Origin: a virus | Reading direction: 5' to 3' (one strand) | IMG/VR virus record: IMGVR_UViG_3300025759_000004 | Location: 1-61,509 of that record | Length of the DNA stretch: 61,509 bases | Part shown: piece after piece, positions 2,897 to 61,509 of the stretch | Position numbering within the stretch: the stretch's first letter is position 1 | How the letters are laid out: each line of letters starts with the position of its first letter | Notes under the pieces: model-generated | Database searches by the model: none | The model's input: only the letters and a program-made list of their open reading frames with translations | What the model was told of the DNA's origin: nothing | Program-made: the position numbers and the translations under genes

Positions 2897-3118
2897 TTAA
2901 TATAAAATTAGTTTTAATCTTCGATTGTATTTCTTTAAAAGCTTTGCTTTGTTTTCTATATTACCGTGTAAAATAGTTATATTTTTATTAAAGCTATATT
3001 CACCTTTAAAAGATGCTTTTATTATATCACCGTGTAACTCTGCTATTATTTGATGCAGAAACTTTACGTGACCCGCTTTTCTTTTTCGCTGCTTTAATTT
3101 TGTCGTTAATGTTCGCAT
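2897..3118 (-). CDS. Small basic protein, unknown function
   Basis: 73 residues, rich in Lys and Arg, opening with MRTLTTKLKQRKRKAGHVKF. No recognised domain. Its start overlaps the end of the preceding gene by 13 nt, consistent with a shared early transcript. Nucleic-acid binding is plausible from charge alone. Confidence 0.5.
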   Translation of the reverse strand: MRTLTTKLKQRKRKAGHVKFLHQIIAELHGDIIKASFKGEYSFNKNITILHGNIENKAKLLKKYNRRLKLILY

Positions 3119-3606
3119 AATTCGTTGATGTTATGTGGTCGTACAATTTTTTGCTCATTTTTATTTTTTACTGTGTGTTTTTCGTTTTCATAATAATTCC
3201 AGTATGCAATTAAGCTACTGTCTGCTTTGTATTCGTCTGGCATGCATTGTGGTGGCTCAACCCAATCATTACCCTGTATATGTTTAGGAGGTATTGATAA
3301 AAAATCTCTACACTTAATAATAGTAAGGTGCTGTTTGCCGTATCTTTTAGTATATTCTTTACCCAATGCAATCATATGGTCGTATAGCCACATGTACGTT
3401 AATTTAGATCTTCTAGCCCATATTGTGGACGGGTGATTTAAATGTGCTTGCCTATAAGGTACATTAGACTTTTGTTCCGCGTCTCCATAACAATGATGCG
3501 CAGTGCATAACATTTGTGCAGACTCTAATATCATTTTTACTTTATGTTTATCGTAAAAATAACTTGCTGCTTTAGCTGGATCGGGATGTAAATAAAATAT
3601 ATTCAT
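3106..3606 (-). CDS. Conserved phage protein (MNIFYLHPDP family)
   Basis: 166 residues. I recognise the layout from T4-like cyanophage and other marine-phage proteins of unknown role: an N-terminal DKHKVKMILESAQMLCTAHH segment, then NHPSTIWARRS, YMWLYDHMIALGKEYTKRYG and a QCMPDEYKAD turn. Conserved His, Asp and Glu suggest an enzyme, but I cannot assign a reaction. It starts at the TAATG junction with the KTSC gene at 3606. Confidence 0.65.
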   Translation of the reverse strand: MNIFYLHPDPAKAASYFYDKHKVKMILESAQMLCTAHHCYGDAEQKSNVPYRQAHLNHPSTIWARRSKLTYMWLYDHMIALGKEYTKRYGKQHLTIIKCRDFLSIPPKHIQGNDWVEPPQCMPDEYKADSSLIAYWNYYENEKHTVKNKNEQKIVRPHNINELCEH

Positions 3607-3873: not shown

Positions 3874-4137
3874 CTAATTCTCTTTATACATTCCGTGGTA
3901 TTGTACTTCAAACTCTTCACGTATTTCACGGCCATATGCAGTATTAAAACCATAGCTATGTGTACCTCCTAAGCTCACCTGCTCAATCATAAAATGAAAG
4001 ATTTCTTTAGGGGTATATCCATATTGTTTAGCTACAATTCTGCATGCTTTAGCCATACGTTTTACATTATGACGTAATTCGCCATAGTTTTCGGTTATAT
4101 AATCTTTTATATATTTTTGCGATATTGTTTTACTCAT
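3874..4137 (-). CDS. Hypothetical phage protein
   Basis: 87 residues, mixed charge, predicted mostly helical (ISQKYIKDYITENYGELRH...). No recognised domain. Its ATG at 4137 shares a base with the stop of the gp88-like gene (TAATG). Its end abuts promoter copy 1, so a new transcript probably begins just downstream. Confidence 0.55.
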   Translation of the reverse strand: MSKTISQKYIKDYITENYGELRHNVKRMAKACRIVAKQYGYTPKEIFHFMIEQVSLGGTHSYGFNTAYGREIREEFEVQYHGMYKEN

Positions 4138-4751
4138 TAGTGAAATATTAATCCTACTTTTTTATTTTTACTAAACCATTTTGTTGCCATCAAATCAATA
4201 CTAGAAGCATCCACATAACCGTTAGATACAAGATCGCTATGACTAGAAAAGATTTTGGTGTGTCTATGTTTTCTTTCATTTATTAAATGTTTTTGTTTAC
4301 CTGAATCACTAAATATAATATCGTAATTACTTGGTAATGAAGTCTTTAAGATCATATCTACCATATTGGTATAACTGTAAAACCGTACGTTCGGATTGTG
4401 TATAGCAATCTCTATCCACTTTTTTAGATACGCGGGTGAGTAGTAATCGCCGCTATCATGGACTCTGACGTAGTCAGGTTTCTTCTTACGTATTTCAACG
4501 TTCATAGCTTCAACAAAGTCGTCTGTCTTTGTTAACTGATAACGCTTTTCAAACGCAGGTTTTACGTTAGACCAGATGTAAGCTCCTTTCTTGGCATAAC
4601 AGAATTTAACACAACCGTCAGCCATAGGGCACGTCAGTTTCCCGCTAGCAGATTTGTAGGCAGGAATACCAAAGTTAAAAACCCGGAGCCCGAGTTCTTT
4701 AGATGTTTTTTTAAGTTTACTATTCTGTGTCAGAAGATTCATAGTATTCAA
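4137..4751 (-). CDS. Gp88-family protein with Cys cluster
   Basis: 204 residues. The N-terminus matches the phage gene-product-88 family: LLTQNSKLKKTSKELG, FNFGIPAYKS, then the Cys cluster CPMADGCVKFCYAKKGAY (C-x5-C-x3-C). Later segments YVRVHDSGDYYSPAYLKKW and RFYSYTNM resemble alternating strand-helix units. The Cys cluster probably binds metal, perhaps an Fe-S cluster; that is inference. The gene overlaps the MSYCRFEN-family gene upstream by 32 nt. Confidence 0.7.
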   Translation of the reverse strand: MNTMNLLTQNSKLKKTSKELGLRVFNFGIPAYKSASGKLTCPMADGCVKFCYAKKGAYIWSNVKPAFEKRYQLTKTDDFVEAMNVEIRKKKPDYVRVHDSGDYYSPAYLKKWIEIAIHNPNVRFYSYTNMVDMILKTSLPSNYDIIFSDSGKQKHLINERKHRHTKIFSSHSDLVSNGYVDASSIDLMATKWFSKNKKVGLIFH

Positions 4752-16037: not shown

Positions 16038-17594
16038 ATGTCAGACGCAATTGTCAAAAACTTGAACTTTGGAACAGAAGCTAGAGATCAAGTATTTAAA
16101 GGAATAGAAAAACTCACTAAAGCTGTTAGCTCCACGTTGGGAGCTAGCGGCCGATGTGTGATGTTAGAAGATAACACTGGAAAACCCATTATTACAAAAG
16201 ACGGTGTTACTGTAGCAGATTCAATAATCTTGCTAGATCCAGTTGAAAATATGGGTGCTACACTTTTAAAAGAAGCTGCTCGCAAAACAGTGCAAGAAGC
16301 GGGTGACGGCACAACAACGGCAACGGTACTAGCTCACTCTATACTAAGTGAAGCTTATAAAGTTGCTGATAAAACAAACTCAAGAGAGTTGAAAAACGGT
16401 ATTAATAAAGCTGTTAAAAATGTAGTTAAGTTTTTACAGTTAGTATCTGTAGACGTTAAAGGCGATATGATAGATCAAATTGCTACAATATCTACAAACA
16501 ACGACGCTAAACTTGGAAAAGTTATAGCGGATGCTTTTAGAGCGGTTGATAATACAGGTGTGGTTATGATGGAAACGGCTTCAGATGGTAAAACATATGT
16601 TGAAGTTGTTGATGGTGTCCAATATGAAAAAGGACTTAAGAACTCACACTTTATAACTAACAAAGCTAATAAAACGGCTGAGTTGGACAAACCGCTAGTG
16701 CTTTTATTAGAATCCCCAGTGGACACAATAAGACAGATTCAGTCTGTGCTAGAGTACGTAATAAAAAACAACAAACCTTTGCTTATTATAGGCGATTTAG
16801 AACAAGGTGTTTTATCAGCTCTGGCAATGAATAAAATGAAAGGCGCTATTAAAGTAAATGTTATTGATGCTCCAACATACGGTATCAATAAACAACAGAT
16901 GCTTCAAGACCTTTCGCTTTTAACTGGTGCCACTATCATAAACGAAGACCTTGGAGATGATATGGATATGATACAGCCAGAACACTTAGGAACTTGCATT
17001 AAAAGTGTTACTTCTCACGAAGATACAGTTTTACAAGTTGAAGAACCTTCTGAAGAAATATTAAGTGTTATAAAAGAATTAAAACAACAAGTATTAGAAG
17101 AAAAAAATCCTAATAAAGTTGTAAAGCTGGAAAAAAGATTAGCAATGCTTTCTGCTAAAATAGCAATTGTAAAAGTGGGTGCTAATTCAGAAATAGAACT
17201 AAAAGAAAAAACAGATAGGGTAGAAGATGCTATCTGTGCTACTAAAGCTGCTATTAAAGAAGGGATTGTTCCTGGTGGTGGTATTGCTCTATTAAATGCC
17301 GCAACAAATTTAAAAGCTAAGTCTATTGGTGAAACAGTTTTGCTAGAAGCTATTAAAGCGCCTTTTAAAACTATACTTGAAAACGCAGGTGTTGATAATG
17401 TTAAAACACCAACTAGAAAAGGACAAGGTTATAACGTGGTTACGGGAAAAATGGTAAATATGACAAAGTCAGGTATTATAGATCCTCTACTTGTTACCAA
17501 GAGCGCTCTTCAAAATGCAGCTTCCGTAGCGACTACGATTTTATCTACAGATTGTGTAATTAATAATCTAAGAATTAATGAAGGCAATAGGTAG
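16038..17594 (+). CDS. groEL: GroEL-type chaperonin, group I
   Basis: 518 residues against about 548 for E. coli; the C-terminal GGM tail is missing. Nucleotide-site motifs are present: ITKDGVTVA (D55, equivalent to E. coli D52) and GDGTTTAT at 89-96 (D90, equivalent to D87). After VPGGG (421-425) the loop reads AATNLKAKSI, shorter than in host GroELs and without any acidic residue, so the equivalent of catalytic D398 appears absent. The leader is ATTAAATTAAATTAAATT. The gene overlaps groES by 17 nt. It probably folds the phage's own late proteins. Confidence 0.95.
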   Translation: MSDAIVKNLNFGTEARDQVFKGIEKLTKAVSSTLGASGRCVMLEDNTGKPIITKDGVTVADSIILLDPVENMGATLLKEAARKTVQEAGDGTTTATVLAHSILSEAYKVADKTNSRELKNGINKAVKNVVKFLQLVSVDVKGDMIDQIATISTNNDAKLGKVIADAFRAVDNTGVVMMETASDGKTYVEVVDGVQYEKGLKNSHFITNKANKTAELDKPLVLLLESPVDTIRQIQSVLEYVIKNNKPLLIIGDLEQGVLSALAMNKMKGAIKVNVIDAPTYGINKQQMLQDLSLLTGATIINEDLGDDMDMIQPEHLGTCIKSVTSHEDTVLQVEEPSEEILSVIKELKQQVLEEKNPNKVVKLEKRLAMLSAKIAIVKVGANSEIELKEKTDRVEDAICATKAAIKEGIVPGGGIALLNAATNLKAKSIGETVLLEAIKAPFKTILENAGVDNVKTPTRKGQGYNVVTGKMVNMTKSGIIDPLLVTKSALQNAASVATTILSTDCVINNLRINEGNR

Positions 17595-52621: not shown

Positions 52622-54343
52622 TTAGCCATCACACGCTAAACAATCTTCACTCATTGCTTGTTGTGCTATATCTCCACGAAGCACCGACTCTGTCCTCGTA
52701 TAATATAAAGTCTTAATACCATTTTTCCAAGCTTGCATATGGACTTGGTTAATCCATTTAGGCGTTGCTACACTAGGAAAAGCAAGATTTAAACTAACTG
52801 CTTGATCAATGTATTGCTGCCGTATACCAGCTTGATTAACTAACTCTAGTTGATTAATCTCCTTAAACGTCTTAAATACTTCTTTCGCAGGGATTTCGTG
52901 CGGGCCAACAACAACCCCATCAAGCTCAGATAAATCTTGAACGCTACCACCATCTGCAAGTATTTTATCCCAAGTTTCATTTGTGTTAATTTTAAGTTTT
53001 CTTAATAACTTTAGTAGCGTAGGATTTTTTCTTATAAACGTTCCTTTAGCAGATTGCTCAGTGAATACGTTTGCCGCCCACGGTTCAATACCAGGAGATA
53101 CATTTCCCGAAAGCTTGCTATTAGAAACAGTGGGAGCAATAGCACGAAGGTGAGTATTACGCATGCCAGTATTAGCACACCACAAAGGCTCGCCGTAAAT
53201 TTCAGCAAGATCCCTGGAAGCTCTTTCACTTTCAATTTTAATTTGCGAAAATATTTTTCTAGTTTCAAACTGAGCAAGTAAACCTTCAAACGGAATGCCA
53301 AGCTCTTGGAGATACGTGTGCCATCCGAGTACACCCAACCCAAGCGCTCGTCCTTTAACAGCAGAACGAACGGCATTTTCAAAACCTCTAAGTCCTTTTG
53401 CTCTTTGTATAAATTCCTCCATAACGCCATCAAGAAACCAAGTGGCGTCGTATATAAGGTTAGTGTCTTTCCATTCATCATATTTAGCTAAGTTTAGTGA
53501 CGATAAACAACAAACAAAACTGTGGTTTTCATCGGTGTGTAATGTAATTTCAGAACATATGTTAGTCATATGTACTTTTAAACCGTTGTCTTTGTATGAT
53601 TTAGGATTTGCTTTGTTAGTATTTCCTTTAAACAATATATACGGCTCGCCAGTGGCCTTTCGTTTTCTAAGAAGTTTACTCCATCTATCCCTAGCTTGCG
53701 CATCTCCTTGTTCAAGTTTACGCATAAATTTATCACCAACAACTGCGCATTGGTGTAGATTAAGCGATTGTCTATTGACGTCTCCTTTTGGTTCACGGAT
53801 TTCAAGCCACTCTTCGAAATCGTCGTGCTCAATATTAATATTAACTGAAGCAGCTCCTCTTCTGACAGATCCTTGATTAGTTGCAAGAATCGTTGAGTCG
53901 TAGATTTTGCAGAACGGTACGACTCCATCTGATGTTCCATTTCCTGTAATTTTAGCGCCGGCGGGTCTAATCATGTTAACTCCGATACCAACTCCACCGC
54001 CATGCTTAGCGAGTAGCATCATCTCTAAATTCTTTTGTCCTATATCCTGTATACTATCAGCTACATCGATCCCAAAGCAGCTAATAGGCAAGCCGCGGTC
54101 AGTACCGGTGTTAGATAATACAGGACTAGCAAGACAAAGCCAACCGTTCCAGATATACTCGAAGAATGTTTCTGCCATTTCTGGTTTGAATAATCTACGA
54201 GCAACTGTTTTACTGACGCGCGTGTATGCTTCTTTAGGTGACTCTCCGTCGAGTAAATATCCCCCGGATATAGTCTTCTTGTATACGTCGTTATTACCCC
54301 ACGCAGGGTAATCTTCACCTTTTTTCCAGTTTTCATTCCACAT
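52622..54343 (-). CDS. nrdA: Class I ribonucleotide reductase, alpha subunit
   Basis: 573 residues, shorter than host enzymes because the N-terminal ATP cone is absent. Active-site elements are present: GLPISCF (redox Cys), NICSEI (radical Cys and Glu), FVCCLSS (second redox Cys), PGIEPWAAN, LYYTRT with paired Tyr for radical transfer, and a C-terminal CLAC pair (residues 569-572) for reduction. It makes deoxynucleotides for phage DNA. Lacking the cone, it should escape dATP inhibition. Its partner NrdB is at 54984. Confidence 0.93.
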   Translation of the reverse strand: MWNENWKKGEDYPAWGNNDVYKKTISGGYLLDGESPKEAYTRVSKTVARRLFKPEMAETFFEYIWNGWLCLASPVLSNTGTDRGLPISCFGIDVADSIQDIGQKNLEMMLLAKHGGGVGIGVNMIRPAGAKITGNGTSDGVVPFCKIYDSTILATNQGSVRRGAASVNINIEHDDFEEWLEIREPKGDVNRQSLNLHQCAVVGDKFMRKLEQGDAQARDRWSKLLRKRKATGEPYILFKGNTNKANPKSYKDNGLKVHMTNICSEITLHTDENHSFVCCLSSLNLAKYDEWKDTNLIYDATWFLDGVMEEFIQRAKGLRGFENAVRSAVKGRALGLGVLGWHTYLQELGIPFEGLLAQFETRKIFSQIKIESERASRDLAEIYGEPLWCANTGMRNTHLRAIAPTVSNSKLSGNVSPGIEPWAANVFTEQSAKGTFIRKNPTLLKLLRKLKINTNETWDKILADGGSVQDLSELDGVVVGPHEIPAKEVFKTFKEINQLELVNQAGIRQQYIDQAVSLNLAFPSVATPKWINQVHMQAWKNGIKTLYYTRTESVLRGDIAQQAMSEDCLACDG

Positions 54344-54983: not shown

Positions 54984-55952
54984 TTACCAAATGTCGTCGA
55001 AGTCTTCGCCTTCGTTAGCTTTCGAATAATCCGTCGGCCGTATTGCGAAAAAATCAGTATGAGTGACCCCGCCGGTAAGATGATAGAACCAATCAAGATT
55101 AGACGCTGCATTCTTGTCATACGCGAAGTACGAGCCAAGGTCAACGTAACCAAGTTCAACCAGTTTTTCATTTGCTCTCTTTTTTATAAAATGTTTAAGA
55201 TCATTGGCTTTTATACCTTCTACATCACCAGCTTCAAACATTTTCTCTATATATTTAGTTTCAAGCTTTATCATCGTTTCTGCAGCTTTTATTATATCTT
55301 CTCTACATAAATGCAGTAATTGATCATTTTCGCTGCACATATCGCGGAAAAGTTTACAACCCATTTTACTGTGTAATGATTCGTCTCTTACGGACCATTT
55401 CATTTGTTGTCCAATACCCTTGAGTAAATTACGTAGCTGGAAGCTGTATAAAACAGCAAAAGCTGAATACAAACTAACGCCTTCTGCGAAAGCAGAAAAT
55501 ACGGCAAGTGACTTACCAATACCAATAGGATTTGTACCGTCATAAGCAACCAGATTATCAAATCTCTGTGCTGTAGCAGGTTCGTGCAAAAACGCTTCAT
55601 AATCTTCTAAGTTTAATGTTTCATTTAAATAACTATAAGCAACCGCATGCACTGTCTCTTGTGATCCAAACATCATTGCCATTTGTTGTATTTCGTGCTT
55701 CGGAAACCAACTAACTACCTTTTGGGTCCAGTAATCAGAAACCGCGCATTCCGTCTGTGCAAAGCCGAGTAATATATTACCGACCAAGTTCTTTTCTTTA
55801 TCATTTAATTTTTCTTTCCAATCTTTAATATCGCTTTGCATTGAGATTTCGGTATGTAACCAAAATGCTTGTGCTTGTTTTAACCAGCCTTCTGTGTAAT
55901 ACTCTGGATACTCAAAAGGTTTATATGCTATGCGTTCATCAAATAATCCCAT
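54984..55952 (-). CDS. nrdB: Class I ribonucleotide reductase, beta subunit
   Basis: 322 residues. Metal-site motifs are visible: LHTEISM, FGSQETVHAVAYSYL (Glu, His, then the radical Tyr four residues after the His), AEGVSLYSAF, and RDESLHSKMG (Glu and His). The acidic end EDFDDIW is the likely alpha-binding tail. It holds the tyrosyl radical for NrdA. The radical Tyr is present, so a conventional class I mechanism is expected. Confidence 0.93.
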   Translation of the reverse strand: MGLFDERIAYKPFEYPEYYTEGWLKQAQAFWLHTEISMQSDIKDWKEKLNDKEKNLVGNILLGFAQTECAVSDYWTQKVVSWFPKHEIQQMAMMFGSQETVHAVAYSYLNETLNLEDYEAFLHEPATAQRFDNLVAYDGTNPIGIGKSLAVFSAFAEGVSLYSAFAVLYSFQLRNLLKGIGQQMKWSVRDESLHSKMGCKLFRDMCSENDQLLHLCREDIIKAAETMIKLETKYIEKMFEAGDVEGIKANDLKHFIKKRANEKLVELGYVDLGSYFAYDKNAASNLDWFYHLTGGVTHTDFFAIRPTDYSKANEGEDFDDIW

Positions 55953-56219: not shown

Positions 56220-56385
56220 AACATTTTATTCCATATTTATCTTGTAATTCCACTAATTCTTTGTACTTAACTTTATTACGCATTTCCCAGCTCCATTTAA
56301 CCCACTTGTTAATCTGGCGTTCAGCGTATTTTTGCCTAGCTACTTCTTTTGTTTTTCTAGGATCAATCTTACTGTCTCGTCGCAT
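56200..56385 (-). CDS. Small basic protein
   Basis: 61 residues, helical and basic (RKTKEVARQKYAERQINKWV). Trp-rich middle. It overlaps the nuclease gene by 46 nt. No recognised domain. Confidence 0.45.
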   Translation of the reverse strand: MRRDSKIDPRKTKEVARQKYAERQINKWVKWSWEMRNKVKYKELVELQDKYGIKCYGKANT

Positions 56386-56801
56386 TCTTTTTGATTTTGT
56401 GGTTTATACAATGTTACGTTTGGAAACTGGCGCATAACTAATTGCTTAAATAGCTTCCAGCGCATTGGAAAAGATTCATTAGCTCTCCCTTTACATTCAA
56501 TTATAAAATCATCACCAATAAAATCTGGTGTGTATTTTATAGGTAATATACGTTTACAACCTCTGTTTTTGTAATCACCTTTTCCATTCGTTTGTCTTTC
56601 ATATACTTCGTTTTCAAAATGAAAACCATTTAATAATACAAACGTTTCACCTTCGTATTTACATTTTATTTTAGCTTTACGTAAAGCCATATACATATAA
56701 CGCTCAAGACCAGAAGCAAAGTTAATACCGTCATACGTTACTTTCTTTGCTTGAACTGGACCTCTTTTGCGTCGCTTTCTTTTATAAGGTATCTTCTTCA
56801 T
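56340..56801 (-). CDS. PD-(D/E)XK nuclease, DUF1064-like
   Basis: 153 residues. Basic start, then TYDGINFASGLERYMYMALR (E33), YTPDFIGDDFIIECKG (D93, E102, K104). That E...D...E-x-K order is typical of phage resolvase-like nucleases of the DUF1064 group. It may trim recombination intermediates or resolve packaging concatemers. Its start overlaps the MazG-like gene by 20 nt. Confidence 0.7.
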   Translation of the reverse strand: MKKIPYKRKRRKRGPVQAKKVTYDGINFASGLERYMYMALRKAKIKCKYEGETFVLLNGFHFENEVYERQTNGKGDYKNRGCKRILPIKYTPDFIGDDFIIECKGRANESFPMRWKLFKQLVMRQFPNVTLYKPQNQKECDETVRLILEKQKK

Positions 56802-57045
56802 AAACTTCGTAAGAATTTATTAATGCTTGCTGAAGCTCTTCTGTTGATTCTTCTTTAAGCTTTTGTAGATACAACACAGCATCCATTAGCTCTTCTTGCA
56901 AATGATTAATCCATTGGAATATATTAGATTTGTCATTGTCAAGAGTAACACCATACTTTGCAAAGCCTACATCAGATCTTGATACAAACTTATCAACAAC
57001 ACGTTCAACAACTGGATCTCTAAATTCTATTTGTTTTTTATTCAT
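56782..57045 (-). CDS. MazG-like NTP pyrophosphohydrolase, small
   Basis: 87 residues. VGFAKYGVTLDND then WINHLQEELMDAVLYLQKL gives the E-E-x-x-D metal motif of all-alpha NTP pyrophosphatases. The fold normally needs about 90-100 residues and dimerises. It would split a (d)NTP to the monophosphate and pyrophosphate. It is encoded next to a second MazG-type enzyme and the thymidylate-synthase-family gene, which suggests dNTP pool editing. Confidence 0.65.
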   Translation of the reverse strand: MNKKQIEFRDPVVERVVDKFVSRSDVGFAKYGVTLDNDKSNIFQWINHLQEELMDAVLYLQKLKEESTEELQQALINSYEVYEEDTL

Positions 57046-57824
57046 AGTGTTTCTTTTATTCCTGTTTTAACAAATGTTCCATTGTGCATTACACCAGTTC
57101 TATTAGCTATTTCATTGTATGCTGAATCAATACAGTTTTCAATTTGCATATCCTCTAATGCGGCTAGGTTTGTTAAAACTACAACCATATCTCCAATAGC
57201 GTCTTTAATAAAGTAAGAATCTTTGTTTAATAAAGCGGCTGCTAGTTCTCCAGCTTCTTCCATAAGCTTAACATATTGTGTATGTGAATTGCCTTTATCA
57301 TATATGCCTCGCTCAGTTGCCCATTTTCTTATAAGCTCAAATCTTTCATTTTGATTCCAAGATACCTCTTGAGGATTATGCTTTGGATTAAAAAAGGCTT
57401 CATAAAAAGCCTTGTTGTAAATGTAGCTTCGATTATCGTTATACATCGAGGTTTTAACATTAGCCATAATCCATGGAATGTTTTCTTTTGTTATTTTAAA
57501 TTCACCAAAACTTGTTTCCCAAGTTAAGCCTACATTATCCGAAAGCCTACCTTTAAGTTTATTAACAGGTAGCGGAAATGTAGATGTCTGCTCTGTAGCG
57601 TTTATTTTCATTTTATTAAATAATTGTTTATATAATTTTCTGTCTTTTTTATAGCCATAAGACTTTTGAAGTTCTATTTCGCGGTCGGAGATATAGTTTA
57701 TATCTTCACTTTGATCAAGAACTTCGTATTCGCCTGCTGCATAACCCTGTTGCAACGTAACTCTATTATTAAGATTACGTGTAACTCCGATTTTTTTACC
57801 AGGAATGTGATATAAATAATACAT
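57042..57824 (-). CDS. GIY-YIG-like domain fused to MazG pyrophosphohydrolase
   Basis: 260 residues. The N-terminus resembles a GIY-YIG fold: YYLYHIPGKKIGVTRNLNNR followed by a helix and DREIELQKSYGYKKDR. The motif residues are degenerate, so cutting activity is uncertain. Residues about 160-250 are a complete MazG domain: VKLMEEAGELAAALLN (E189, E190, E193) and KDAIGDMVVVLTNL (D208, D212). It overlaps the small MazG-like gene by ATGA. MazG enzymes hydrolyse dNTPs, and in T4 a comparable all-alpha enzyme removes dCTP. Confidence 0.7.
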   Translation of the reverse strand: MYYLYHIPGKKIGVTRNLNNRVTLQQGYAAGEYEVLDQSEDINYISDREIELQKSYGYKKDRKLYKQLFNKMKINATEQTSTFPLPVNKLKGRLSDNVGLTWETSFGEFKITKENIPWIMANVKTSMYNDNRSYIYNKAFYEAFFNPKHNPQEVSWNQNERFELIRKWATERGIYDKGNSHTQYVKLMEEAGELAAALLNKDSYFIKDAIGDMVVVLTNLAALEDMQIENCIDSAYNEIANRTGVMHNGTFVKTGIKETL

Positions 57825-57832
57825 ATTTATTT

Positions 57833-58672
57833 TTATTTACCAACACTCAGCTCTGCTTTAATTGCAGGATAAGGATTGTATTTTAATAATTTAATTTTAT
57901 CAGCCGCAGGTATATTAACTTTATTTGTTAGCTTACCTAACTCTGAATACATATATATACCTTCGTCTAATTGTAATTTAGGCAGTATTCTTTTTGGTCT
58001 ATCTAAATATACTTGAGCTTGTTCTAAATGATTGTTGTACAAATGACAATCACCAAGCTGACCTATAAGCTGCCCTGCTTTTAATCCAGCACCTTTAGCT
58101 AACATTTCTAATAATAAACCATACATTGCAATATCGTAAGGCAATCCTAAAAATACATCAGCTGAACGTTGCTGCCACATTAAATCCATAACACCATTAT
58201 TAATATAAACTTGAAATCCATAATGACACGGCGGCAAAGCCATATCAGGCATATCAGCCGGGTTCCAAGCGCTGATCATAAGGCGTCTAGAATTTGGATT
58301 AGTACTTATGCTATACACAAGCTTTTCAAGCTGATCTACGCCGTTAAAATCGCGCCATTGCTTGCCATATACAGGACCAAGCGTTTCATCTGTTCTGCCT
58401 GAACGTTCATAATCTGGTCTCCAATACTTAACACCGTTGTCTTCTAAATATTTAAGATCAGTTCTACCGTTTAATATCCAAATTAATTCAGTTCTTGCGG
58501 CATTAAAGCTTATCTTCTTTCCTGTAAGTATAGGGAAGCCAAGTGACATATCATGCCTAATCGTTCTTCCGAAGACAGACTTCGTCCCAGTCCCTGTTCT
58601 GTCCGCCTTATCAGATCCTCCGTGGAGTATTTCTCCCATAAGTCTTCTATATTCATCTTCTATGCTTATCAT
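57833..58672 (-). CDS. thyA: Thymidylate synthase-family enzyme with dCMP-type Asp (probable dCMP methylase/hydroxymethylase)
   Basis: 279 residues, full-length ThyA fold. Motifs: RTGTGT (25-30), ELIWILNG (62-69), GPVYGKQWR, PPCHYGF with catalytic C149, QRSAD (168-172), LGLPYDIAMY, and GDCHLYNNH. The residue 31 after the catalytic Cys is D180. In dUMP enzymes this position is Asn (E. coli N177); Asp is found in T4 dCMP hydroxymethylase (D179), and the N-to-D change is known to shift specificity to dCMP. Trp84 is kept, as in methylating enzymes. The substrate is therefore predicted to be dCMP. It overlaps the upstream gene by 20 nt. Confidence 0.85.
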   Translation of the reverse strand: MISIEDEYRRLMGEILHGGSDKADRTGTGTKSVFGRTIRHDMSLGFPILTGKKISFNAARTELIWILNGRTDLKYLEDNGVKYWRPDYERSGRTDETLGPVYGKQWRDFNGVDQLEKLVYSISTNPNSRRLMISAWNPADMPDMALPPCHYGFQVYINNGVMDLMWQQRSADVFLGLPYDIAMYGLLLEMLAKGAGLKAGQLIGQLGDCHLYNNHLEQAQVYLDRPKRILPKLQLDEGIYMYSELGKLTNKVNIPAADKIKLLKYNPYPAIKAELSVGK

Positions 58673-58940
58673 AATAATATTTCATTGCTTTATACATTTG
58701 CTCTACAATTTCATCTTTGCCATATGTTTGAGGCGAAAGGTTAGGTTTTTCATATTTCTGGTATGCTCCTAAACAAACTGTTAGCTTAAAGTTTTCAGGC
58801 GACATACCCTGCTCCAAAGGTTTAAATGATATTCTTATATTATTTTTTACGCAATACCTATATGCTTCCCAATCTTCTTTACTTGGTTTATAATATTCAA
58901 ATTCATTTTTGCCTTTCTTTTTTCTAAAACCACTACCCAT
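58653..58940 (-). CDS. Conserved hypothetical phage protein
   Basis: 95 residues from ATG 58940, which shares a base with the primase-helicase stop (TAATG); another ATG lies 9 nt upstream. Contains SKEDWEAYRYCVKNNIRISF and FKLTVCLGAYQKYEKPN. Possibly a replication or nucleotide-metabolism accessory by position. No recognised domain. Confidence 0.55.
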   Translation of the reverse strand: MGSGFRKKKGKNEFEYYKPSKEDWEAYRYCVKNNIRISFKPLEQGMSPENFKLTVCLGAYQKYEKPNLSPQTYGKDEIVEQMYKAMKYYYDKHRR

Positions 58941-60649
58941 TATTCCCAAGGCATTGGCTCAGCCGTTAGATCAATAGGTTGATGAGGAATAAAACAACCA
59001 GACTTAGGTTCCCATTTAAAATGAGCTTCAGCGCCATTTTCCCCAAGGTTTTGAAACTTTACTTTAAGCACCTTAGCTTTGACTGTTTTTTCTTCATAAT
59101 TCCTATGCACCAATAAGCCATGATAACTAGCGTCATACCATTCACCACCGCCTTTGATATTGTACATCGTAGGTTCCTCAATCTTTCCATCTGATCCTTT
59201 ATACATTTTAGTTGGATGTGCTACTATAAAAACTAACACATCATACTTCTTAGCAAAGATTTCAATCTTTTGCAAGTATTCCATTGTGTAGCGATTAACA
59301 TCTTCTGTTTTTGCATCTACGTCACGAACTTTATTAAACGGATCAATAACCAAACATTTAATACCCTTACGCTTTACTAGCTCAGCGCCTTTTCTTAATA
59401 CGGCTTCAAGAGTATATCGCTCCATATCAATATGAAAAAAGTTACTGTTGCAATGATCAGCAACCTGATTCCATTTGTCACCGCCAATATCATCTCTGCT
59501 TGGCATGCCTTGCCAAACTTTACGCATTAACTTGTGTGCGTGAAGGTATGTCGGTACATTTTCCGGACTAGCGAACGCCGTTTTCCAGCCATAGTTTTGG
59601 TTATATCCAACAACCATTTGGTCGACGAAATCTGACTTCCCGCTACTTGGAATACCAGTAACAGTAATGAACTGACCAGTATAAGTTGAAAAGATGTCAT
59701 CAAAATTTTGCAAACCAATTTGATATCCAGGCTTAAACCCGTTACGAACAAAGTCCGTGACTTCGTCCTCAATGTCCCTAAATGTCGTGACATTTTCGAG
59801 CGGCACTGGTCTCGCTGCGGTAATACGCTGTACCAATTTTTTTGTTCCATACTTTATTAAATATTCGTTAGCGTCTTTGCAATCATCAAATGATGCTAAA
59901 TAACAAACTTCAGATCCTAACCGTCTTACAAGTTCAGCTTGCAATGCTTGACCAGCTTCGTCAGTATCAACTGCTAATATTATTTTTTCTTTATCATCAA
60001 AATAATCAATACAGTTGTCTAAGTATTCTAAGTTGTTTGTATTAAGTGTTGCACCATTGGGTACAGATATTGCATTTGTTATACCAGCTTCATGTAACGC
60101 CAACACGTCCATTTCACCTTCAACAATTATACAATACTCATAACCAATGATACTGTCTATGTTATAAAATACTTTTTCAGCACCCTTATATAATTTAAAG
60201 TTCTTTCTTCCATCGCGGTATTTAATATTAATTAAATCACCACCCATAAAATAATTGAACTTTATTGTGTTCTCGGATTTACCGGTTTGTGGCATATATT
60301 CAGCACCCTCACCGACTTTTAGATCAGTGAGAGTTTGCTGAGATATACCTCTTGATTTAAACCATTCAACAACTTTGCTATCAGGTGGTTTAACAACCGT
60401 TTCATTAGGTCGTTCATACACCCTTTCAGTTTCACCTTTACGTTTGTACGTATGAAGTTGAAAAGTTGAATTACAGTTGTGACAAGTACCGAGACCCCGT
60501 TCCCAATCATAAGACGCGCATTTTGCCTTTTGATTTTTAGGTTTTCTATCAGCTGAACACAAAGGACAGGTTCCTTGCTTTTTGCCAGCTTCAAGCTTAT
60601 GTATATTGAATTCATCAATTACAAATCCATTGATCTCTGTTGTCTGCAT
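58940..60649 (-). CDS. T7 gp4-type DNA primase-helicase
   Basis: 569 residues. A zinc finger (C28, C31, C56, C59) is followed by a TOPRIM primase core with VEGEMD (176-181) and DTDEAG (228-233). After a linker comes a RecA-type helicase with Walker A GIPSSGKS (332-339), CLVIDPFN as Walker B, and IVAHPTK. It unwinds the fork and primes lagging-strand synthesis. No phage DNA polymerase is encoded, so it must work with the host replicase. Confidence 0.9.
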   Translation of the reverse strand: MQTTEINGFVIDEFNIHKLEAGKKQGTCPLCSADRKPKNQKAKCASYDWERGLGTCHNCNSTFQLHTYKRKGETERVYERPNETVVKPPDSKVVEWFKSRGISQQTLTDLKVGEGAEYMPQTGKSENTIKFNYFMGGDLINIKYRDGRKNFKLYKGAEKVFYNIDSIIGYEYCIIVEGEMDVLALHEAGITNAISVPNGATLNTNNLEYLDNCIDYFDDKEKIILAVDTDEAGQALQAELVRRLGSEVCYLASFDDCKDANEYLIKYGTKKLVQRITAARPVPLENVTTFRDIEDEVTDFVRNGFKPGYQIGLQNFDDIFSTYTGQFITVTGIPSSGKSDFVDQMVVGYNQNYGWKTAFASPENVPTYLHAHKLMRKVWQGMPSRDDIGGDKWNQVADHCNSNFFHIDMERYTLEAVLRKGAELVKRKGIKCLVIDPFNKVRDVDAKTEDVNRYTMEYLQKIEIFAKKYDVLVFIVAHPTKMYKGSDGKIEEPTMYNIKGGGEWYDASYHGLLVHRNYEEKTVKAKVLKVKFQNLGENGAEAHFKWEPKSGCFIPHQPIDLTAEPMPWE

Positions 60650-61146: not shown

Positions 61147-61509
61147 TTAAAGTGTTTGATTAATAAAAAATTGTTGAGGATCAAAATCCTCTGATTGATA
61201 AAACAATTTATATTGTTCTGCTGCTCTTTTTACTTTGTCTTGACCACGTTCATAAAACTCAGGCGAGCAGTCGAATATGCCTAGTTGATGAGTGGTTTTG
61301 TCGATAACTATAAATACAAATTCATAGCCAAACAACTTACTATAAATATAAGCTTGACTGTCGTAATTGTACTTAGAAGCTGACCAACGAAACTTATTAA
61401 GATCTGCAGTAGTCTTTAGATCAATAATAAGCTTTTCGTCGTGATTAACAATATCAGCTTTACCTTTCCATTTTAAACCTTCAAGCTCTGTAATACCTGG
61501 TCTTTCATA
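61147..61509 (-). CDS. RecE-like exonuclease, C-terminal part (continues across the contig join)
   Basis: The frame enters from the join with LIIDLKTTADLNKF and ends at 61147 after FVFIVIDKTTHQLGIF and a helical tail QQFFINQTL. Joined with 1-490 it makes a 241-residue protein with no frameshift. The part before residue 61383 is C-terminal to the catalytic D151/K153. Confidence 0.85.
   Translation of the reverse strand, partial: YERPGITELEGLKWKGKADIVNHDEKLIIDLKTTADLNKFRWSASKYNYDSQAYIYSKLFGYEFVFIVIDKTTHQLGIFDCSPEFYERGQDKVKRAAEQYKLFYQSEDFDPQQFFINQTL
61383..61509. repeat. Terminal direct repeat, right copy
   Basis: Exact second copy of bases 1-127. Removing one copy gives a unit genome of 61,382 bp. 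The join restores an uninterrupted 241-codon gene, which supports true circular closure. Confidence 0.95.

Follow-up and report, generated by a model that had tools for sequence, protein, structure and literature searches.

Our analysis of the window, a 61,509-nucleotide stretch of viral DNA, identified a gene of the thymidylate synthase (TS) family whose product is best explained overall as a ThyA-fold dCMP methylase, a reading that we regard as probable on the comparative sequence evidence. The first-pass annotation had proposed dCMP specificity and cytosine modification for this enzyme, and both are strongly supported by comparison with relatives, because the dCMP-selecting Asp is invariant across the clade, a dCMP hydroxymethylase replaces the enzyme in the same gene slot of sister phages, a MazG-type neighbour accompanies either enzyme and carriers show no restriction-site avoidance. 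The product, the virion base and the function of the MazG-type protein are what we infer from there. The gene order in this region is primase-helicase, 98-aa gene, enzyme, MazG, 87-aa gene, DUF1064, NrdB and NrdA, with the following features:

57833..58672, minus strand: ThyA-type TS-family enzyme with Asp177, predicted dCMP C5-methylase (intact ORF, 279 aa)
58226..58228, minus strand: codon of catalytic Cys149, equivalent to E. coli Cys146 (alignment)
58133..58135, minus strand: codon of Asp180, equivalent to E. coli Asn177 and T4 gp42 Asp179 (alignment)
58940..60649, minus strand: primase-helicase, Toprim and DnaB-like (profile match, gene order)
58653..58949, minus strand: 98-aa conserved protein upstream of the enzyme, overlapping its start by 20 bp
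57042..57824, minus strand: 260-aa protein with a C-terminal MazG-type NTP-pyrophosphohydrolase domain (N-terminus GIY-YIG-like by eye)
56782..57045, minus strand: 87-aa conserved protein of the same cassette (gene order in relatives)
56340..56801, minus strand: DUF1064 / Holliday-junction-resolvase-like protein (profile match, gene order)
54984..55952, minus strand: NrdB, ribonucleotide reductase small subunit (profile match, gene order)
52622..54343, minus strand: NrdA, ribonucleotide reductase large subunit (profile match, gene order)

The window is a marine, Bacteroidota-type podovirus genome, and by terminase and portal it falls into a group that is otherwise known from podoviruses of Flavobacterium, Cellulophaga, Tenacibaculum and Maribacter. 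Its first 127 bases (1-127) exactly duplicate the last 127 (61383-61509) and a DUF3799 gene spans the join of the two ends, indicating a complete, circularly closed genome of ~61.4 kb. The enzyme gene is the only PF00303 gene in this genome, as is also the case in 33 long relatives, and searches of the window genome for ThyX, PolA, PolB, dCMP deaminase and a T4-type dNMP kinase found none. A literature search for flavobacterial phages with such enzymes returned no papers. Elsewhere in the window, a phage-encoded GroEL-type chaperonin (phrog_5725; 16038-17594) typical for this podovirus group was observed, and the early region holds a Pyr_excise-like gene (T4 DenV family, weak match) and a gene for a GP88 family protein at 3106-3606 and 4137-4751 (minus strand).

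The enzyme gave a full-length PF00303 match in a profile search (E 2e-84, residues 7-277) and its AF2 model (pLDDT 94) adopted the ThyA fold, with a Z of ~36 and an rmsd of 1.3-1.6 A to ThyA structures, so that profile, fold and the catalytic Cys, Arg, Asp, His and Tyr all place it in the TS superfamily. The best 50 structural matches of the model were thymidylate synthases only, and the fact that T4 dCMP hydroxymethylase is missing from these 50 is no argument against kinship with it. Asp180 lies in the motif LPYD, 31 residues past Cys149, as the first-pass annotation had described without giving the minus strand of the ORF; its equation of this spacing with E. coli ThyA Cys146/Asn177 and T4 gp42 Cys148/Asp179 was also correct, since the three pairs occupy the same alignment columns. 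The remaining ThyA catalytic residues were all retained in the alignment, in agreement with its statement that the other substrate and folate motifs are intact. Asn at E. coli position 177, the hallmark of dUMP-specific thymidylate synthase, is absent from the window enzyme and all its relatives, which carry Asp, and this Asp177 occurs together with an intact TS-type reductive machinery, the combination that characterizes a dCMP methylase in sequence. The annotation had further held that changing Asn to Asp favours dCMP over dUMP, and in the literature as cited in PMC8670742 such mutants do switch to dCMP, Asn177 to Asp in ThyA yielding a dCMP methylase. Asp177 has also been associated with cytosine-modified phage contigs (MetaGPA).

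Conservation of this residue was surveyed across the clade, where Asp was invariant in more than 100 relatives at 58-88% identity. Asp180 and Tyr179 were both present in every one of 80 relatives with 64-87% identity. A second scan, whose contigs were partly shared with the first, found the two residues in 73/73 loci, and 28 further loci at ~60% identity had them without exception. Asn, in comparison, occupied the position in 44/44 aligned ThyA proteins of bacteria and phages and in 77 of 80 matches from a bacterial genome collection, while the remaining three matches were copies of the phage gene. These three Asp matches sit in metagenome-assembled genomes labelled as Bacteroidetes UBA4009 and Rickettsiales MED657, and the contigs are probably mis-binned phage because they carry the phage gene, with phage gene order checked in one. 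Invariance in relatives against Asn in bacterial matches places Asp180 beyond chance. Four further positions near the site were fixed in the clade relative to the 44 Asn-type proteins (Ile79Tyr, Trp83Asp/Asn, Ser180Met and Ala182Gly).

The gene neighbourhood of sister phages pointed to the same substrate. Three long contigs with terminases 78-80% identical to that of the window encode another PF00303 protein in the same slot, between the primase-helicase and the MazG gene, and its best solved relative was T4 dCMP hydroxymethylase (E 4e-19). All 80 retrieved copies of this sister protein had Asp177 together with the equivalents of T4 Ser94 and Asp145. One slot is thus occupied by either a ThyA-type Asp enzyme or a gp42-type hydroxymethylase, which have the dCMP-selecting Asp in common. 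The 260-aa MazG-type gene directly followed the enzyme in 110/111 Asp-enzyme relatives and the same gene adjoined the hydroxymethylase in 79/80 hydroxymethylase-type relatives. Over its full length the MazG protein found no match in 17 enzyme-less relatives, two of which showed a match to the MazG domain only. This protein is a candidate dCTP pyrophosphatase that would supply dCMP, although MazG proteins are common in phages, which counts against the weight of this neighbour. One 77-kb contig (IMGVR_UViG_3300030380_004057) carried two hydroxymethylase-MazG cassettes, at 100% and 78% to the query, perhaps through duplication or as a chimera.

In the mechanism that we propose, Asp180 would recognise and protonate N3 of cytosine, and Cys149 would attack dCMP rather than dUMP. 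The nucleotide would then take the methylene of CH2-H4folate, and hydride transfer would reduce the product to 5-methyl-dCMP. The MazG-type neighbour may hydrolyse dCTP to dCMP, as T4 gp56 does, which would both deplete the normal nucleotide that competes with the modified one and provide the enzyme with substrate. Phosphorylation of 5-methyl-dCMP to the triphosphate would fall to kinases of the host. A host polymerase, proposed here because searches of the window genome returned neither PolA nor PolB, would then build DNA with 5-methylcytosine in place of much or all cytosine. Such DNA would be expected to resist most type II restriction enzymes, and the modification probably disguises phage DNA from bacterial restriction enzymes.

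A genome-wide trace of this protection was sought in C-containing 4-mer palindromes, for which avoidance was defined as an observed/expected ratio below 0.25 with at least 8 expected. Avoidance of at least one palindrome was found in 16/20 enzyme-less contigs versus 1/50 Asp-enzyme contigs and 1/40 hydroxymethylase contigs, a contrast with a Fisher p of 1e-13 that is uncorrected for shared ancestry among contigs that are not independent. Observed/expected counts in enzyme-less relatives reached 0/42 to 0/133 for GATC, 0/90 for CATG and 0/26 for GGCC, and extreme avoidance of GATC, CATG, GGCC, CGCG or CCGG was seen in enzyme-less relatives of the terminase group, including elemoA and MW202828. 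In the window, GATC (175/144) and CCGG (66/77) were close to expectation and no palindrome was strongly avoided besides a low CATG (68 observed, 158 expected, 0.43), a tendency that was also seen in the clade. One hydroxymethylase-type contig still avoids CATG (0/35) and GATC (5/22) and is an exception to the pattern. The lack of avoidance in carriers fits DNA that is uncut at such sites, as has been shown in Xp12.

Loss of avoidance is a clade-level correlation and could also stem from the hosts, the habitats or other antirestriction genes. The enzyme might modify dCMP while the base merely supplements the pool or serves a non-restriction role, with non-avoidance reflecting hosts that lack those restriction systems, and this we judge to be quite unlikely. 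Avoidance is phylogenetically clustered, the hosts and habitats of carriers may not be those of non-carriers, and three cultured enzyme-less relatives avoid little; however, avoidance is lost alike with either of two different dCMP enzymes, and in metagenomic relatives without an enzyme it extends to several unrelated palindromes. Less probable still is that the gene supplies dTMP as an ordinary or relaxed thymidylate synthase, with Asp as an oddity of the lineage. The canonical ThyA sequence and fold (40-49% identity; Z ~36), the intact reductive machinery and the status of the gene as the sole TS gene of the genome are all what such an enzyme would have, but its Asp is strictly invariant, mutants of this kind switch to dCMP in the work that PMC8670742 cites, sister phages have a dCMP hydroxymethylase in its slot, and no dCMP deaminase for making dUMP was found in the window.

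Given dCMP as substrate, the product may be methylated or hydroxymethylated. The first-pass annotation had taken Trp84 as leaving this choice open, and the residue proved uninformative; it was rejected as a marker of either product, because T4 dCMP hydroxymethylase has the same Trp (Trp82; PMC6400193). Mutation of T4 Ser94 or Asp145 strongly lowers hydroxymethylation (PMC6400193), and where T4-type enzymes have these residues the window enzyme has the TS-like Pro100 and Leu146. It also ends in a TS-type C-terminal tail (..IKAELSVGK) that T4-type enzymes lack. The TS-type Pro100, Leu146, His150 and tail therefore favour 5-methyl-dCMP, which overall is the probable product as far as residues can predict it. 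A point against the dCMP methylase reading is that the clade has kept His147, which other cytosine-modifying phage enzymes have changed (Pro in the Xp12 type, Thr in T4; MetaGPA). A dCMP hydroxymethylase with the same dCMP selection, in which water rather than hydride resolves the exocyclic methylene to give 5-hydroxymethyl-dCMP as in T4, appears rather unlikely. The use of this slot for a T4-type hydroxymethylase in sister phages speaks for it, as does the C-terminus, which in most clade members runs 1-2 residues past the usual terminal Val (Gly-Lys or similar), an extension that could disturb hydride transfer, T4's enzyme being without a tail. Yet Pro100 and Leu146 are as in ThyA, where 80/80 sister hydroxymethylases have Ser and Asp, and no T4-type dNMP kinase was found in the window, a point tempered by its absence from hydroxymethylase-type sisters too.

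The predicted dCMP methylase was compared with three kinds of known enzyme. With ThyA and T4-like td it shares the fold, Arg25, Glu62, Trp84, Tyr102, Leu146, Cys149, His150, Gln168, Arg169, Ser170, Asp172, His210, Tyr212 and the C-terminal tail; it differs in Asn177 to Asp and Phe176 to Tyr, which are fixed in the clade along with the four changes near the site, and in the longer C-terminus of most members. The engineered N177D and N229D enzymes of E. coli and L. casei share the ThyA scaffold and the single specificity switch, whereas the switch in the window is natural, fixed clade-wide and accompanied by changes around the site. T4 gp42 has in common with it the Asp at 177/179, the slot (through the gp42-like enzyme of sister phages) and the presumed substrate, but the window enzyme is without the Ser94/Asp145 equivalents, keeps the TS tail and is only 23-25% identical, so that of the T4-type features it has the Asp alone.

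Xp12 (MT664984) replaces all C by 5mC and its DNA is uncut by 90% of restriction enzymes (PMC9206674, PMC7653180). Its presumed dCMP methylase (Pamexvirus/Bosavirus), represented here by the close relatives AXL1 and PaMx28, shares GLPYD with Asp at 177, and its gene, like that of the window, adjoins one for a MazG/PRA-PH-type pyrophosphohydrolase. The two enzymes are ~28% identical and differ at the C-terminus, the Xp12-type operon additionally holds a dCMP deaminase, DHFR and an ENDO3c protein, and an Xp12-type enzyme would have Pro147 besides Asp177 and belong to that clade, where the window enzyme has His150, 28% identity and a separate tree group. The first-pass annotation had suggested placing the protein in a tree, and there the clade formed one group (SH-aLRT 100) within a larger phage td group (SH-aLRT 99), apart from the Xp12 and T4 types. 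AU tests of a single origin of all Asp enzymes gave p values of 0.49 and 0.84, and a p of 0.20 once Gaprivervirus td was included and the motif masked, so a common origin is not rejected; in view of these values an independent origin from the Xp12 and T4 types is not claimed as proven.

The same residue was found in td of T4-like phages that lack gp42, namely VR25/VR26 and a near relative, SP18, VR7, Acinetobacter 133 and Morganella MP1, with SP18, VR7, 133 and MP1 each having one TS gene, which carries Asp177. VR5 and the T4 group, which have gp42, had Asn in td, as did RB49, which has been treated as a canonical-DNA phage (PMC8056088). Gaprivervirus, Acinetobacter phages ZZ1 and 133 and Morganella MP1 are without a known non-canonical-base enzyme, and a base-modifying enzyme that is yet to be recognised has been suggested for Gaprivervirus, ZZ1 and 133 (PMC8056088). 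The Asp177 td is a candidate for the enzyme proposed there for Gaprivervirus and other T4-like phages. Gaprivervirus td grouped with other Tevenvirinae td (97, motif masked), and this looks like a separate Asn-to-Asp switch.

In summary, cytosine replacement in Xp12 and the association of Asp177 with modified phage DNA in MetaGPA were already known in kind; the ThyA-clade version, the in-place swap and the link to restriction-site avoidance are new. The picture that we find somewhat better than even is of a large, uncultivated lineage of Bacteroidota-type podoviruses with a cytosine-modification cassette in which the first enzyme can be exchanged without a change of position, with a ThyA-derived dCMP methylase (5mC genomes) in one clade and a T4-type hydroxymethylase (hmC genomes) in its sister clade, both lifting restriction-site avoidance, and with Asn-to-Asp arising separately in td of T4-like phages that lost gp42. 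A housekeeping enzyme would thus have become a DNA-modification enzyme through a specificity switch at one key residue that was fixed in nature, and two chemistries, methyl and hydroxymethyl, would be swapped in place within one virus lineage. The presence of the enzyme is tied to a genome-wide readable trace, the lost avoidance of restriction palindromes, and the Asp177 reading of T4-like td can be checked on cultured phages.
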